From: an uncultured Acidobacteriota bacterium
GTDB taxonomy: Bacteria; Acidobacteriota; Thermoanaerobaculia; Gp7-AA8
Reading direction: 5' to 3'
Length of the DNA: 64,000 nt
Assembly (NCBI GenBank): GCA_937870635.1
Contig: CALMZP010000053.1
Coordinates: 62,001 to 126,000 of the forward strand
Shown here: one piece after another, positions 38,646-52,216 of the stretch
How the letters are laid out: each line of letters starts with the position of its first letter
Position numbering within the stretch: the first letter of the stretch is position 1
Program-made: the position numbers and the translations under genes
The notes under the pieces: generated by a model
Told to the model about the DNA's origin: nothing
Database searches by the model: none
The model's input: only the letters and a program-made list of their open reading frames with translations

Positions 38646-39941
38646 ATGCCGAGAATCCTTGCCGCCGCGCTGCTCATGATCACCACCGCCTGTACCACCA
38701 CCAGCATGACCGAGGTCAACCATACGATGAACACGGCCGCCGAGCGTTACGTTCGCCTCGTCCTCTCCCTCGGCGAGCACGACGCCGATTACGTCGACGC
38801 GTACTACGGGCCGCCGGAATGGCGCCAGGAGATCAAAGCGCGCAAGCCGACACTCGACGAGGTCTACACGAACGCCCTCGATCTGCGTCGCGAGCTCGGC
38901 GCGATCGCCATTCCCGCCGGCGACGTCGAGAAGCTTCGCCTCGAATACCTCCGCAAACAGACCGACTCGCTCATCGCAAAGTCGGAAATGCTGCGCGGAC
39001 GGAAATTCACATTCGACGAGGAGTCGAAGGCTCTCTATGACGCCGTCGCTCCCCACAACACCGAGCAGTATTTCCAGAGCCTGACCGCGCAGCTGGAGAA
39101 CGAGCTCCCCGGCACCGGGTCGCTCAGCGAGCGTCTGGGCGCGTTCAAAAAGGAGTTTGTCATTCCGAAGGACAAGCTCGACACGGTGTTCCGGCGCGCC
39201 GTCGACGCATGCCGCGAGCGGACGCTTCAGCACATCGAGCTGCCTCCCGGCGAGAGTTTCACGATCGAATACGTCACGGATAAATCGTGGAGCGGATACA
39301 ACTGGTATCAGGGCAACTACAAGAGCCTGATCCAGGTGAATATCGACCTGCCGATCTACATCGACCGCGCGATCGACCTCGCCTGCCACGAGGGATATCC
39401 CGGACACCATGTCTACAACGTTCTGCTCGAGAAGAACCTCATGCGCGACCGCGGGTGGGTCGAGTACAGCGTCTATCCGCTCAACAGCCCGCAATCGCTC
39501 ATCGCCGAGGGGAGTGCAAATTACGGAATCGAGATGGCCTTCCCGGGGCAGCAGCGCGTCGAATTCGAACGCACGCATCTCTTTCCTCTCGCCGGCATCG
39601 ATCCCGCGCGCGCGGAGAAGTACTACCGCATCAACGCGCTCGAACAGAAGTTCACATACGCCGGAAACGAAGCCGCGCGCCGGTATCTGAACGGTGAGAT
39701 CAATGCGGCACAGGCCGCGGAATGGCTGACGAAGTACGGTCTCTACTCCCCCGAGCGCGCGAAGCAGCGAATCCGCTTCATGGACCAGTACCGCAGCTAC
39801 GTCATCAACTACAACCTCGGCAAGGACCTCGTGCGGCAGTACGTCCAGCGCGAAGCGGGAAACGATCCAGCGAAACGGTGGGAGGTCTTCGAGCGGTTGC
39901 TCTCGACTCCCCGCCTGCCTTCCGGTCTGCAGGGACCGTAA
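38646..39941 (+). CDS. DUF885-type lipoprotein peptidase
   Basis: 431 residues; ATG at 38646, lipobox MITTAC with Cys16. The domain is all-helical and carries HEGYPGHH (near residue 250), the HExxxGHH zinc motif of DUF885 proteins, with a further Glu in LIAEGSANYGIEMAF as third ligand. DUF885 members are related to M32-like carboxypeptidases and are usually secreted. It is probably attached to a membrane and digests peptides outside the cytoplasm. The longer in-frame reading from 38589 crosses the repeat and is not used. Confidence 0.85.
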   Translation: MPRILAAALLMITTACTTTSMTEVNHTMNTAAERYVRLVLSLGEHDADYVDAYYGPPEWRQEIKARKPTLDEVYTNALDLRRELGAIAIPAGDVEKLRLEYLRKQTDSLIAKSEMLRGRKFTFDEESKALYDAVAPHNTEQYFQSLTAQLENELPGTGSLSERLGAFKKEFVIPKDKLDTVFRRAVDACRERTLQHIELPPGESFTIEYVTDKSWSGYNWYQGNYKSLIQVNIDLPIYIDRAIDLACHEGYPGHHVYNVLLEKNLMRDRGWVEYSVYPLNSPQSLIAEGSANYGIEMAFPGQQRVEFERTHLFPLAGIDPARAEKYYRINALEQKFTYAGNEAARRYLNGEINAAQAAEWLTKYGLYSPERAKQRIRFMDQYRSYVINYNLGKDLVRQYVQREAGNDPAKRWEVFERLLSTPRLPSGLQGP

Positions 39942-46538: not shown

Positions 46539-47431
46539 GCGAAGCTCCAGTCTTCCAGCGACGGTCCATGCTCGAGGTTGTGATGTACGGCGGCGACGAA
46601 CCCGTCGACGTCGGCCTGGGGAAACCGGGCGCGGAGGCGCTTGCTCACGGCGTGCGCTTTCAAGGCCGCGCCGAGGTCGCGGCCGAGCCGGTAGACCGGC
46701 GGCGCCGCGTTGCCGCGCACCGCCGCGCCCTCCCCGTCTCCGAGTGCAGCGTCGAAGAGAAACACCGCGTGCGCCGACTCGAGTGAGCCATTTTCCGCGA
46801 CGCATCGGGCAATGAGCCCGTCGAGATCGCGATCGACCGCCGTTCGCGCCTCACCTCGATACGCGGTCATCTCCCAGATCGCCATCCGCAAGGTCACGTA
46901 TTTTCCCGGATCTCCGAGAATCGGCACGAGTTTCAGCGCCGCTCTGGTCATGATGAGTTTGTGGCCGAGGTCGGAGAGGTCCTCGCCCGCGACGGTGAGC
47001 AGGTCGTCGCCCAGGCACGAGTCGTCGAGCCGGCGAGCCAGCCATCGCTCGGCGCGAAGGCGATCCTGCGCTTCGCATGCCGCGCGCAACTCATTGATGT
47101 CTGCCGGTGCCGACTGACCGACGTCGGGCGGCGTCAGGATCGGCGGCTCGCTCCAGGGCTGGCGGCTCGCGGCGGCGTAGTAGGCGCATTCGGTGATGAG
47201 GTCGTCCCAGAGATCGCCCGCCTCTTCGCGGAGCTCCCATGTCGAGAGCGCGGCCAGAACCGCGTGTTTGGCGTGCTGGGACGGCGCGTACGAGAGCACC
47301 GCGAACCTCGCCACCGCGAGGAACAGCTCTTCCGAGGTCGCGTCGTTTCGAAACTCGCGGACCGCCTTCTGGACAGCGCCGAGGTCCCGCGCGATGAGCG
47401 GCTCGTACAGCGCCGATACTGCCGAAGACAT
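46535..47431 (-). CDS. helical protein of unknown function in the PBP4 operon
   Basis: 298 residues, ATG at 47431 (a GTG one codon earlier is possible). No signal peptide and no metal or catalytic motif that I know. It looks fully helical, with paired segments such as EELFLAVARFAVLSYAPSQ, DLWDDLITECAYYAAASRQ, GDDLLTVAGEDLSDLGHKLI and SLESAHAVFLFDAALGDGE. Its ATG shares a base with the stop of the Thr-rich lipoprotein, and its own stop overlaps the PBP4 start, so it is translated with both. A cytoplasmic or adaptor role in wall metabolism is a guess. Confidence 0.7.
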   Translation of the reverse strand: MSSAVSALYEPLIARDLGAVQKAVREFRNDATSEELFLAVARFAVLSYAPSQHAKHAVLAALSTWELREEAGDLWDDLITECAYYAAASRQPWSEPPILTPPDVGQSAPADINELRAACEAQDRLRAERWLARRLDDSCLGDDLLTVAGEDLSDLGHKLIMTRAALKLVPILGDPGKYVTLRMAIWEMTAYRGEARTAVDRDLDGLIARCVAENGSLESAHAVFLFDAALGDGEGAAVRGNAAPPVYRLGRDLGAALKAHAVSKRLRARFPQADVDGFVAAVHHNLEHGPSLEDWSFA

Positions 47432-47757
47432 CACGGCTTCCGCGTGGTCGTCGTGGTCGTGGTCGTCGTAGTCGTGGTGGTCGTCGACGTTTCGGTCGGA
47501 GTCACGGGAGACCCGCTTGCGCGGACACCCGGATCGGGCGTCGTGATGTGACCGCCTTCGTTTTCAGAACGGCCGTCGTCGAGCTCCACGGTCTGGGTCA
47601 TCGCGTCGGTGCCGAGCTCGCCAGGTTTCGGCTCCGGTGGCTTGAACGTTCCCGTCGTCTCCGTTCCGGAAACGGAGCTCTCCTCGCGCCCGCAGCCGGC
47701 GGCCAGTACGAGGAGCAACGCGATGGACATCAGGAAAATGGTTTTCTTCAAGGGCAC
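47431..47757 (-). CDS. lipoprotein ending in a poly-threonine tract
   Basis: About 108 residues from GTG 47757 (TTG 47751 or ATG 47730 are alternatives). Lipobox LVLAAGC. The mature part is short, acidic and disordered (ETTGTFKPPEPKPGELG, then ELDDGRSENEGG), and ends TETS followed by about 14 Thr residues and RKP. The tract is written with mixed Thr codons (ACC, ACG, ACA, ACT on the minus strand) and is a microsatellite-like stretch at 47442-47490 that could vary in length. It may be an anchored, glycosylated or wall-spanning stalk; the next genes in the operon are an unknown protein and PBP4. Confidence 0.7.
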   Translation of the reverse strand: MPLKKTIFLMSIALLLVLAAGCGREESSVSGTETTGTFKPPEPKPGELGTDAMTQTVELDDGRSENEGGHITTPDPGVRASGSPVTPTETSTTTTTTTTTTTTTTRKP

Positions 47758-50272: not shown

Positions 50273-50309
50273 GGCGAACGAAACTCCCCCAGCCCGTGTT
50301 CAGAGCGGC

Positions 50310-50927
50310 ATGAAGAACTCCTGGACCGGCGGCGAGACCGCCCTTCCCGCGGAGTACGTCGAGGAGAACCTCGCCGTCGCGGTCCACCGTCGCGAGCCGG
50401 GCGCCTTCGAGCGGATGATCGACCGCTTCGAGACGCCCATGTTCGGGTACGCGCACGGAATCCTGCAGAACACGTTCGACGCGCAGGAAGTCGTGCAGGA
50501 CGCGATGATGCGCGCGCACCGGGCTCTGACGAAGCAGTACGACGAGGCCCGCTGTGCGGCGTTGCTTCTGCGGCCGTGGCTCTTCAAGACGGTCAGGAAT
50601 CTCTCGCTGAACCGGCGGCGGTCGAAGACCCGAGCGCTGGAACAACCGCTCGAGTCGTTCGACGACGGCCGGATCGGACCCTTCGTCAGTCCGGAGTCGA
50701 AGGATCTCGAGAAACGGGAAGAGGCGGACATGCTCCGCGCCGCGATGGCGCTCCTGCCGGTCGAGGCACGCGAGCTGATCGTGCTGCGATTCATGGAGGA
50801 GATGTCCTACGGCGAGATCGCCAGCACGGTCGGGGGAACGGAGGCGGCGCTGCGAGGCAAAGTCTTTCGGTCTCTCAAGCTGCTCCGCGAGGCGCTGGAG
50901 AAACGGGGAGTGACCCATGCAATGTAG
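50310..50927 (+). CDS. ECF-type RNA polymerase sigma factor
   Basis: 205 residues. Region 2 is at about 30-100 (AFERMIDRFETPMFGYAHG; FDAQEVVQDAMMRAHRAL; LFKTVRNLSLNRRR) and region 4 at about 145-200 (LPVEARELIVLRFMEEMSY, then GEIASTVGGTEAALRGKVF). The gene overlaps the next one by 11 bases, and the product of that gene carries an anti-sigma zinc finger, so the two form a sigma/anti-sigma pair. A weak possible ECF promoter (GCGAAC at 50274, 16 bases, GTGTTC at 50296) lies just before the ATG and would allow self-activation; this is only a pattern match. Confidence 0.92.
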   Translation: MKNSWTGGETALPAEYVEENLAVAVHRREPGAFERMIDRFETPMFGYAHGILQNTFDAQEVVQDAMMRAHRALTKQYDEARCAALLLRPWLFKTVRNLSLNRRRSKTRALEQPLESFDDGRIGPFVSPESKDLEKREEADMLRAAMALLPVEARELIVLRFMEEMSYGEIASTVGGTEAALRGKVFRSLKLLREALEKRGVTHAM

Positions 50928-51792
50928 ATCTGCACTGACGCGAATCGACGCGATGCGCACCGGCGAATTGCCGTCGGACGAAGCTGGACAGGTGAAGCAG
51001 CATTTGAAGACCTGCCCTTCCTGCGATGAGTCGGTCGGAGATCTCGATGACCTTGCCAGATCGGTCAAGACGTTGAGCGTGCCCCCGCCGCGCTCGTGCC
51101 GGGAGGCCGTGTGTGACCGGTTCGACATGATCGAAGTCGGCGGGCGTCAGGTCTGGGTGGCGTTCTCGAGCCGCGGCCTCACCATGATTCACACCGGCGG
51201 GTCGGCGGATGACTTTCGCGCGCGGTATGCGGAGCGGCGCGGCCACGAGCTCCATCGCGAGGCGCTCCCGGAAAAGCTTCGCAGGCAGGTTGCCTCCGCG
51301 CTCGAGGGAGAAGGCGTCAGCAAACCGCTGGTCGACCTGGTGGCGGCGACGGACTTCGAGCGAAAAGTGCTCGAGGTCCTCACGCAGATTCCGCGCGGCG
51401 AGGTGCGCACGTATTCGTGGGTGGCGCAGCAGGCCGGACGCCCGTCAGCCATCCGCGCCGTCGGCAACATCTGCGCGCGGAACGTCGTCCCTTTCGTCGT
51501 CCCGTGTCACCGCGTCGTCCCGACGGTCGGCGGAATCGGTAATTACGCATTCGGTGAACGGGCGAAGCGAGAGTTGCTCGAACGGGAAGGCGTGCCTGTC
51601 GGGCAGCTCGAAGATCTGGCGCGCCACGGCATTCGTTTCTTAGGGTCGAAGACGACGAAGATCTTCTGTGTCCCGACGTGCCGCGACGCGCAGCGCATCC
51701 GGGACGAGAACCGTGTCGAGTTTCACCACGCGGACGAGGCCTTTGGCAAAGGATTCCGGCCATGCAAGCGCTGTCAGCCCGCCGCGGCCTGA
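50917..51792 (+). CDS. anti-sigma zinc finger fused to O6-alkylguanine-DNA methyltransferase and Ada zinc domain
   Basis: 291 residues with three modules. Residues 1-55: anti-sigma zinc finger with Cys3, His29, Cys33 and Cys36 (QHLKTCPSCDESV), the HxxxCxxC of ZAS proteins. Residues 65-230: OGT/MGMT, with FERKVLEVLTQIPRGEVRTY, RAVGNICARN and the alkyl-acceptor Cys197 in VPCHRVV, then GGIGNYAFGERAKRELLEREG. Residues 238-288: Ada-type metal-binding domain, FLGSKTTKIFCVPTC and GFRPCKRCQP, with all four Cys (251, 255, 283, 286). In Ada the first of these takes methyl groups from phosphotriesters. Here no AraC-type DNA-binding domain is present. It follows the ECF sigma gene with an 11-base overlap. 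I infer an alkylation-sensing anti-sigma factor. Confidence 0.9.
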   Translation: MQCRSALTRIDAMRTGELPSDEAGQVKQHLKTCPSCDESVGDLDDLARSVKTLSVPPPRSCREAVCDRFDMIEVGGRQVWVAFSSRGLTMIHTGGSADDFRARYAERRGHELHREALPEKLRRQVASALEGEGVSKPLVDLVAATDFERKVLEVLTQIPRGEVRTYSWVAQQAGRPSAIRAVGNICARNVVPFVVPCHRVVPTVGGIGNYAFGERAKRELLEREGVPVGQLEDLARHGIRFLGSKTTKIFCVPTCRDAQRIRDENRVEFHHADEAFGKGFRPCKRCQPAAA

Positions 51793-52216
51793 ACGTTCAA
51801 CCGCGGCTTCCCCTTCCTCTCGACCTGCATGCGATCTCGGTCCCGGCGCGGCAGTTCACGGGAGACTTCCATTTCTCGCAACGCTCGTCGTCGCAAACGC
51901 CGGCCATCCCCCGCCGCTGATCGCGCGAAAGAACGGCGCGGTCGAACAGATCGGATCGACCGGCCCGGTCGCGGGCATCCTCGACGACTCGCGCTGGACG
52001 TCGGTCGTCAAACATCTCGCGCCCTCCGACACGCTGCTGCTGTACACCGACGGCGCGATCGAGGCGAACGATTTCGGCGTGGAAGGTGTGGCCGCTGCCC
52101 TGCGTCAGGCCGCCACCCACCGAACCTCCCGGGCTGTCGCGAATGCCGTGGCCAGCGCCGTACGCGCGCACGGCGGGATCGATGACGACCTCACCCTCAT
52201 GGTGGCGAGAAGGTGA
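51762..52216 (+). pseudogene. SpoIIE-type PP2C phosphatase, internally deleted
   Basis: The N-terminal part (ATG 51762: RLPLPLDLHAISVPARQFTG then DFHF) is the start of a PPM/SpoIIE catalytic domain, where VPARxxGGDFYD is the first metal motif. At about 51880 it jumps, in another frame, to TLVVANAGHPPPLIARKNG, then LLLYTDGAIEAND and GGIDDDLTLMVARR, the end of the same domain. About 100 residues that normally lie between are gone. Both parts are well conserved. It overlaps the end of the anti-sigma gene by 31 bases. Such phosphatases often act on anti-sigma factors or antagonists, which makes its place after a sigma operon notable. Confidence 0.8.

Follow-up and report, generated by a model that had tools for sequence, protein, structure and literature searches.

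An ECF sigma factor and the repair-protein fusion encoded immediately downstream of it probably act together as a soluble sigma/anti-sigma switch that responds to DNA alkylation, with autoregulation of the sigma factor. We assign this reading a probability of roughly 60%. The two genes lie in a stretch of 64,000 nucleotides from an uncultured Acidobacteriota bacterium, referred to here as the window. The case is built on the domain content of the fusion, the conservation of the gene pair and its promoter, and the association of related pairs with alkylation repair genes in other phyla.

Domain architecture of the sigma/fusion locus

The first-pass annotation had described a sigma gene overlapping a fusion gene, and its coordinates, frames and named residues are all correct (Table 1). 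The sigma protein shares 54-80% identity with 16 homologues. It comprises regions 2 and 4 only, measures about 200 aa and has an apparently autoregulated promoter of ECF type (AAC-containing -35, GT-rich -10), features that define an ECF sigma factor.

The three domains assigned earlier to the fusion (ZAS, OGT and Ada-type zinc) are borne out by Pfam matches above the curated cut-offs, namely zf-HC2 at aa 3-36 (2.4e-5), DNA_binding_1 at aa 146-226 (5.3e-29) and Ada_Zn_binding at aa 237-288 (4e-13; profile positions 14-64 of 65). The OGT part also matches the NCBIfam model TIGR00589 above its cut-off, and the Ada zinc domain has sequence matches to the E. coli N-Ada chains 1adn, 1wpk and 1u8b. 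An AlphaFold model of the whole fusion (mean pLDDT 90.1) matches OGT structures (1sfe, E 4.7e-11) and shows a marginal structural match to methylated N-Ada (1wpk). The OGT module precedes the Ada zinc module, with an inter-domain segment of about 10 aa. The AraC part was rightly described as missing, as Pfam and NCBIfam detect no such domain in the fusion and no other HTH besides the OGT DNA-binding fold. No Ada zinc domain other than that of the fusion turned up in the genome of the window; hence, no classical Ada was found there.

Catalytic and zinc-binding residues are strongly conserved. In an alignment of 37 sequences from several phyla, R180 (Arg finger), N189 (Asn hinge), C197, H198, E224 (catalytic Glu) and all four Ada cysteines are invariant. 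Among 17 homologues, C3, H29, C33, C36, N189, C197, H198, E224, C251 and C255 never vary, and C283 and C286 do so only rarely, the exceptions including one shortened row and one aligned variant.

The N-terminus of the fusion is anti-sigma-like, as judged from its sequence and predicted fold. It carries the H-x3-C-x2-C motif with a further zinc ligand that is typical of ZAS anti-sigma factors, and its gene adjoins the ECF sigma gene on the downstream side, as is typical of anti-sigma genes. NCBIfam anti-sigma models match this region below cut-off. A profile of aa 1-70 finds RsiW (0.0013), DdvA (0.027) and chain B of 3hug, an RslA entry (0.092), as its best PDB matches. The domain modelled alone by AlphaFold forms three helices (pLDDT 77), for which the best Foldseek matches are RslA, RsiW, a SigK complex, DdvA and MucA, each with a weak E-value; about 13 of the best 17 matches are chains of anti-sigma structures. 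The anti-sigma identity proposed in the first-pass annotation is thus supported, in that the matches are weak but nearly all of the best PDB matches are anti-sigma factors.

Table 1. Features of the sigma/fusion locus (window coordinates)
Feature	Position	Strand	Evidence
Sigma autopromoter: -35 CGAACG (50275-50280), 14-nt spacer, -10 CGTGTT (50295-50300)	50275..50300	+	Present at 18/18 loci
ECF sigma gene, 205 aa	50310..50927	+	Pfam Sigma70_r2 and r4_2; TIGR02937 above cut-off
Gene overlap, 11 bp (translational coupling)	50917..50927	+	Sequence; short overlap kept in nearly all homologous loci
ZAS-OGT-Ada_Zn fusion gene, 291 aa	50917..51792	+	Domain searches, alignment, AlphaFold (mean pLDDT 90.1)
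Putative ZAS anti-sigma domain, aa 1-72, ligands C3/H29/C33/C36	50917..51132	+	zf-HC2; profile and fold matches
OGT unit, aa 68-226, acceptor Cys197 in PCHRV	51118..51594	+	PF01035 (5.3e-29), TIGR00589, 1sfe fold
Ada zinc domain, aa 237-288, Cys251/255/283/286	51625..51780	+	PF02805 (4e-13); N-Ada sequence matches
Decayed SpoIIE/RsbU-type PP2C phosphatase gene	51819..52216	+	PF07228 on C-terminal part; tblastn pieces

Elsewhere in the window, positions 47431-47551 form a low-complexity simple repeat, read as poly-Val or poly-Thr depending on the frame, at which overlapping ORFs end.

Conservation and promoters across Acidobacteriota and other phyla

Among 60 relatives examined, the full-length fusion with an upstream sigma gene is encoded by 15 of the 17 other genomes of the same family and by the only genome of the same order. 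The two remaining family members (G001 and G010) hold fragments at contig ends. The fusion proteins encoded by these carriers of family and order show 50-67% identity. A sigma gene lies upstream at every full-fusion locus, nearly always with a short overlap, and a phylum-wide search placed the full-length fusion in two further families (f54 and f38). The named carriers are MAGs of Thermoanaerobaculia and other Acidobacteriota, and the lineage with the fusion is one of soil-dwelling Acidobacteriota. The pair is therefore kept across a Thermoanaerobaculia family and beyond it in the phylum, the gene join is not peculiar to this genome, and an artefact of one assembly is ruled out.

The sequence CGAACG-N14-YGTGTT stands perfectly conserved, between flanks of little information content, before 18 of 18 sigma genes, usually 9 nt ahead of the start codon, and this short distance past the -10 element makes the sigma mRNA probably leaderless. 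The occurrence of the promoter at every one of these loci supports the earlier proposal that the sigma factor reads its own operon. In G007 (L152:552-616, contig C82), the sigma promoter and the first six codons (MKNSWT) occur once more as an exact copy that leads into an unrelated, TonB-receptor-like ORF, which represents either an inverted duplication or a misassembly.

Exact searches of genomes also find this promoter before DUF1203 genes in six genomes, and a seventh family homologue carries the site with one mismatch, so that all seven homologues have it. For example, the distance from the sigma promoter to the start of the DUF1203 gene of G000 (contig C15:6883-7404; L145:2484-3005, minus strand) is 21 nt. 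A SAM-methyltransferase gene is preceded by the promoter in all three genomes that have an orthologue (G010, G014 and G007; L195/L196/L197). The genome of the window contains three exact sites, located before the sigma gene, before the DUF1203 gene and within a coding gene. A match at position 38730 of the window (minus strand) sits within a long coding gene that by eye resembles a peptidase gene, and it was taken as chance. When one mismatch is allowed, the same genome yields 29 sites, with the sigma and DUF1203 genes as the only credible targets; apart from the fusion, no recognised alkylation repair gene there has the promoter, and no alkA- or alkB-type target was found. Stand-alone OGT genes of the family have no such promoter wherever the upstream region is readable, and class members without the system show few promoter matches. 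For DUF1203, we found no informative paper and no PDB relative, and its neighbours in two plasmid records gave no clue. To our knowledge, neither DUF1203 nor the SAM-methyltransferase has a role in alkylation.

Outside this family, the succession of a sigma gene and an OGT-Ada_Zn gene, with the modules in the same reversed order, is also seen in Chloroflexota, Actinomycetota (Pseudonocardia, Frankiales, Rubrobacter, Nonomuraea and Streptomyces), Rokubacteria, a Holophagae MAG and other Acidobacteriota. Most of these wider homologues have no ZAS finger, and on our reading of the sequences the short N-terminal stretch of these proteins resembles the end of the anti-sigma domain. In an OGT-Ada tree of 50 rows, 30 of them without the finger, a single branch (support 99/92) sets apart the side to which the finger is confined. 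Since the finger is missing there, the anti-sigma function of homologues outside one acidobacteriotal clade is less certain. In Streptomyces sp. NBC_00212 (L035:2314-3660), one polypeptide, WP_331721395.1, combines sigma region 4 with OGT and Ada_Zn. This natural one-component version is annotated merely as an MGMT family protein. Two Streptomyces plasmids (L034 and L282) carry a second OGT gene after the sigma/OGT-Ada pair and metF nearby, joined by metH in L034; both are genes of methyl-transfer metabolism.

Sites of the type GCAACC-N14-SGKGTT lie upstream of the sigma gene in 12 of 21 loci from other phyla, against 0.024 expected by shuffling, an expectation that is optimistic because the pattern was chosen after inspecting the sequences. 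Class relatives at L020 and L022 carry this promoter type too. Genome-wide searches with the pattern covered 13 carrier genomes and, sigma genes aside, pointed to OGT and Oxygenase-NA genes. In Pseudonocardia humida, the only two sites are the divergent promoters of an OGT gene and an Oxygenase-NA gene beside the operon, and in P. ammonioxydans, two of the three sites precede OGT and Oxygenase-NA genes. A class relative (G033) has two sites, one of which stands 10 nt before an OGT gene. In two Rokubacteria loci and five Acidobacteriota loci of family f29, the Oxygenase-NA gene adjoins the OGT-Ada gene itself. Oxygenase-NA (PF09859) is AlkB-like and, according to Pfam, acts on damaged DNA. The promoters or operons shared with OGT and Oxygenase-NA genes thus link these sigma/OGT-Ada pairs with alkylation repair, and they do so without recourse to the domains of the fusion itself. 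The expectation of the first-pass annotation that the sigma factor reads alkylation repair genes is supported in these relatives, whereas in the genome of the window the one credible target besides its own operon is DUF1203.

Proposed switch and alternative readings

ZAS-type anti-sigma factors such as ChrR and RsrA hold an ECF sigma factor until their sensor part changes, and Ada and OGT proteins are irreversibly altered by accepting alkyl groups. Taken together, these properties imply that alkyl transfer or lesion binding should free the sigma factor. We infer that the fusion would bind its sigma factor, that alkylation would trigger release and that one of two cysteines would serve as the switch. 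In an undamaged cell, the ZAS domain would bind the ECF sigma factor and keep it off RNA polymerase. Once DNA is alkylated, Cys197 of the OGT part would receive the alkyl group of O6-alkylguanine, and Cys251 of the Ada zinc part would accept one from methylphosphotriesters. One such irreversible transfer, or tight binding to a lesion, may then alter or sequester the fusion and free the sigma factor. Cys251 appears the more likely switching residue, by analogy with Cys38 of E. coli Ada. The freed sigma factor would read CGAACG-N14-YGTGTT promoters, that is, its own operon and a small set of genes (DUF1203 and the SAM-methyltransferase). Expression of the operon would supply fresh repair protein and fresh anti-sigma factor in one molecule, so that the system would be reset as damage clears. 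The counterpart of this promoter in the related systems of other phyla would serve OGT and Oxygenase-NA repair genes.

The fusion could also be a methylation-dependent co-activator instead of a brake, with the alkylated Ada zinc domain binding promoter DNA and the N-terminal domain recruiting the sigma factor. There is a precedent in the E. coli Ada zinc domain, which gains DNA affinity upon methylation of its cysteine; the sigma pairing retained by homologues without the finger and the single-polypeptide sigma-OGT-Ada protein of Streptomyces sp. NBC_00212 would fit as well. However, the promoter offers no conserved candidate Ada site, as each of the 40 positions directly upstream of the -35 element carries less than 0.5 bit of information across 17 promoters. 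The N-terminus, moreover, is like anti-sigma factors and not like activators. With no conserved element above -35, and with neither an AraC domain nor another HTH besides the OGT fold, this reading is unlikely.

Under a second alternative, the ZAS finger itself would be the sensor, its zinc cysteines being either oxidised at their thiols or alkylated directly, as in RsrA, and OGT and Ada would merely be co-produced repair enzymes. The C3/H29/C33/C36 motif is indeed invariant in the family and resembles that of redox-active ZAS proteins. Yet many of the homologues without a finger are still paired with a sigma gene and have a related promoter, and OGT-Ada is the feature that all of them have in common. 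The absence of the finger from most phyla makes it doubtful as the sole sensor, and we rate this reading as quite improbable.

A third gene bears on the remaining alternative. In nearly all genomes of the family, a SpoIIE-type phosphatase gene follows the fusion, and it is intact at L040:5976-6740 (SpoIIE match), L048, L051 and L050. In the window, tblastn recovers it only as pieces in two frames, with a frame break and about 66 codons missing. The sigma and fusion genes of the window are intact despite this decay, so the phosphatase is probably dispensable for the switch. A constitutive brake that receives its signal elsewhere, for example from this phosphatase, and that merely couples the level of repair protein with that of anti-sigma would agree with the third-gene position and with family targets that are not classical repair genes, but it has the least to commend it, given that G016 keeps an intact sigma/fusion pair with no phosphatase, that none was found beside homologues outside Acidobacteriota and that both alkyl acceptors are invariant. 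The alkylation-responsive sigma/anti-sigma switch is the preferred reading.

Relation to known systems and biological meaning

Like E. coli Ada (Ada_Zn-AraC-OGT), the fusion combines two suicide alkyl-acceptor modules, with four zinc cysteines and a PCHRV motif, and is linked to transcription of its own gene. It differs from Ada by having no AraC domain, by placing OGT before Ada_Zn, by its separate ECF sigma output and by the N-terminal anti-sigma-like finger. With ChrR, which has a C-terminal cupin, and RsrA, it shares an N-terminal ZAS domain with H-x3-C-x2-C, a gene position just downstream of the ECF sigma gene and autoregulation; unlike theirs, its sensor part is a suicide DNA repair enzyme, and the expected signal is DNA alkylation, not an oxidant or singlet oxygen. 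RsiW, RslA, RskA and MucA, for which sigma complexes have been solved, have a similar cytoplasmic anti-sigma fold. Those are membrane proteins under proteolysis, whereas the fusion has a cytoplasmic repair module in place of the membrane segment.

No description of the fusion came up in literature searches, which agrees with the earlier claim that the combination is undescribed. The gene association itself is not entirely new, however: passages on ECF122 in a 2022 review mention adjoining 6-O-methylguanine DNA methyltransferase genes, a likeness to the present pair, and there list ECF122 among groups without an anti-sigma factor and give it no mechanism (PMC8999054). The modules are already known, and the novelty lies in joining them into a putative alkylation-sensing anti-sigma factor.

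The broader proposition is that of a separate adaptive response in several phyla, in which a suicide repair protein doubles as the anti-sigma factor and irreversible alkyl transfer frees an ECF sigma factor that rebuilds the repair protein. We give it slightly better than even odds. If true, two well-studied modules would have been joined anew, and repair stoichiometry would set transcriptional output directly. The orphan association of OGT with ECF122, noted so far with no explanation, would gain a function, and a functional area would be predicted for DUF1203. ECF sigma factors would then read DNA chemistry, beyond envelope, metal or redox stress, and the pair would provide a natural reporter system for DNA alkylation. 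Its conservation makes the idea of an alkylation-sensing anti-sigma factor testable in cultivable strains. Damage by alkylation is universal, and textbooks describe an adaptive response to it that depends on Ada with its AraC domain. Many of the Acidobacteriota, Chloroflexota and Actinomycetota with this operon may instead rely on a sigma factor in place of Ada-AraC.
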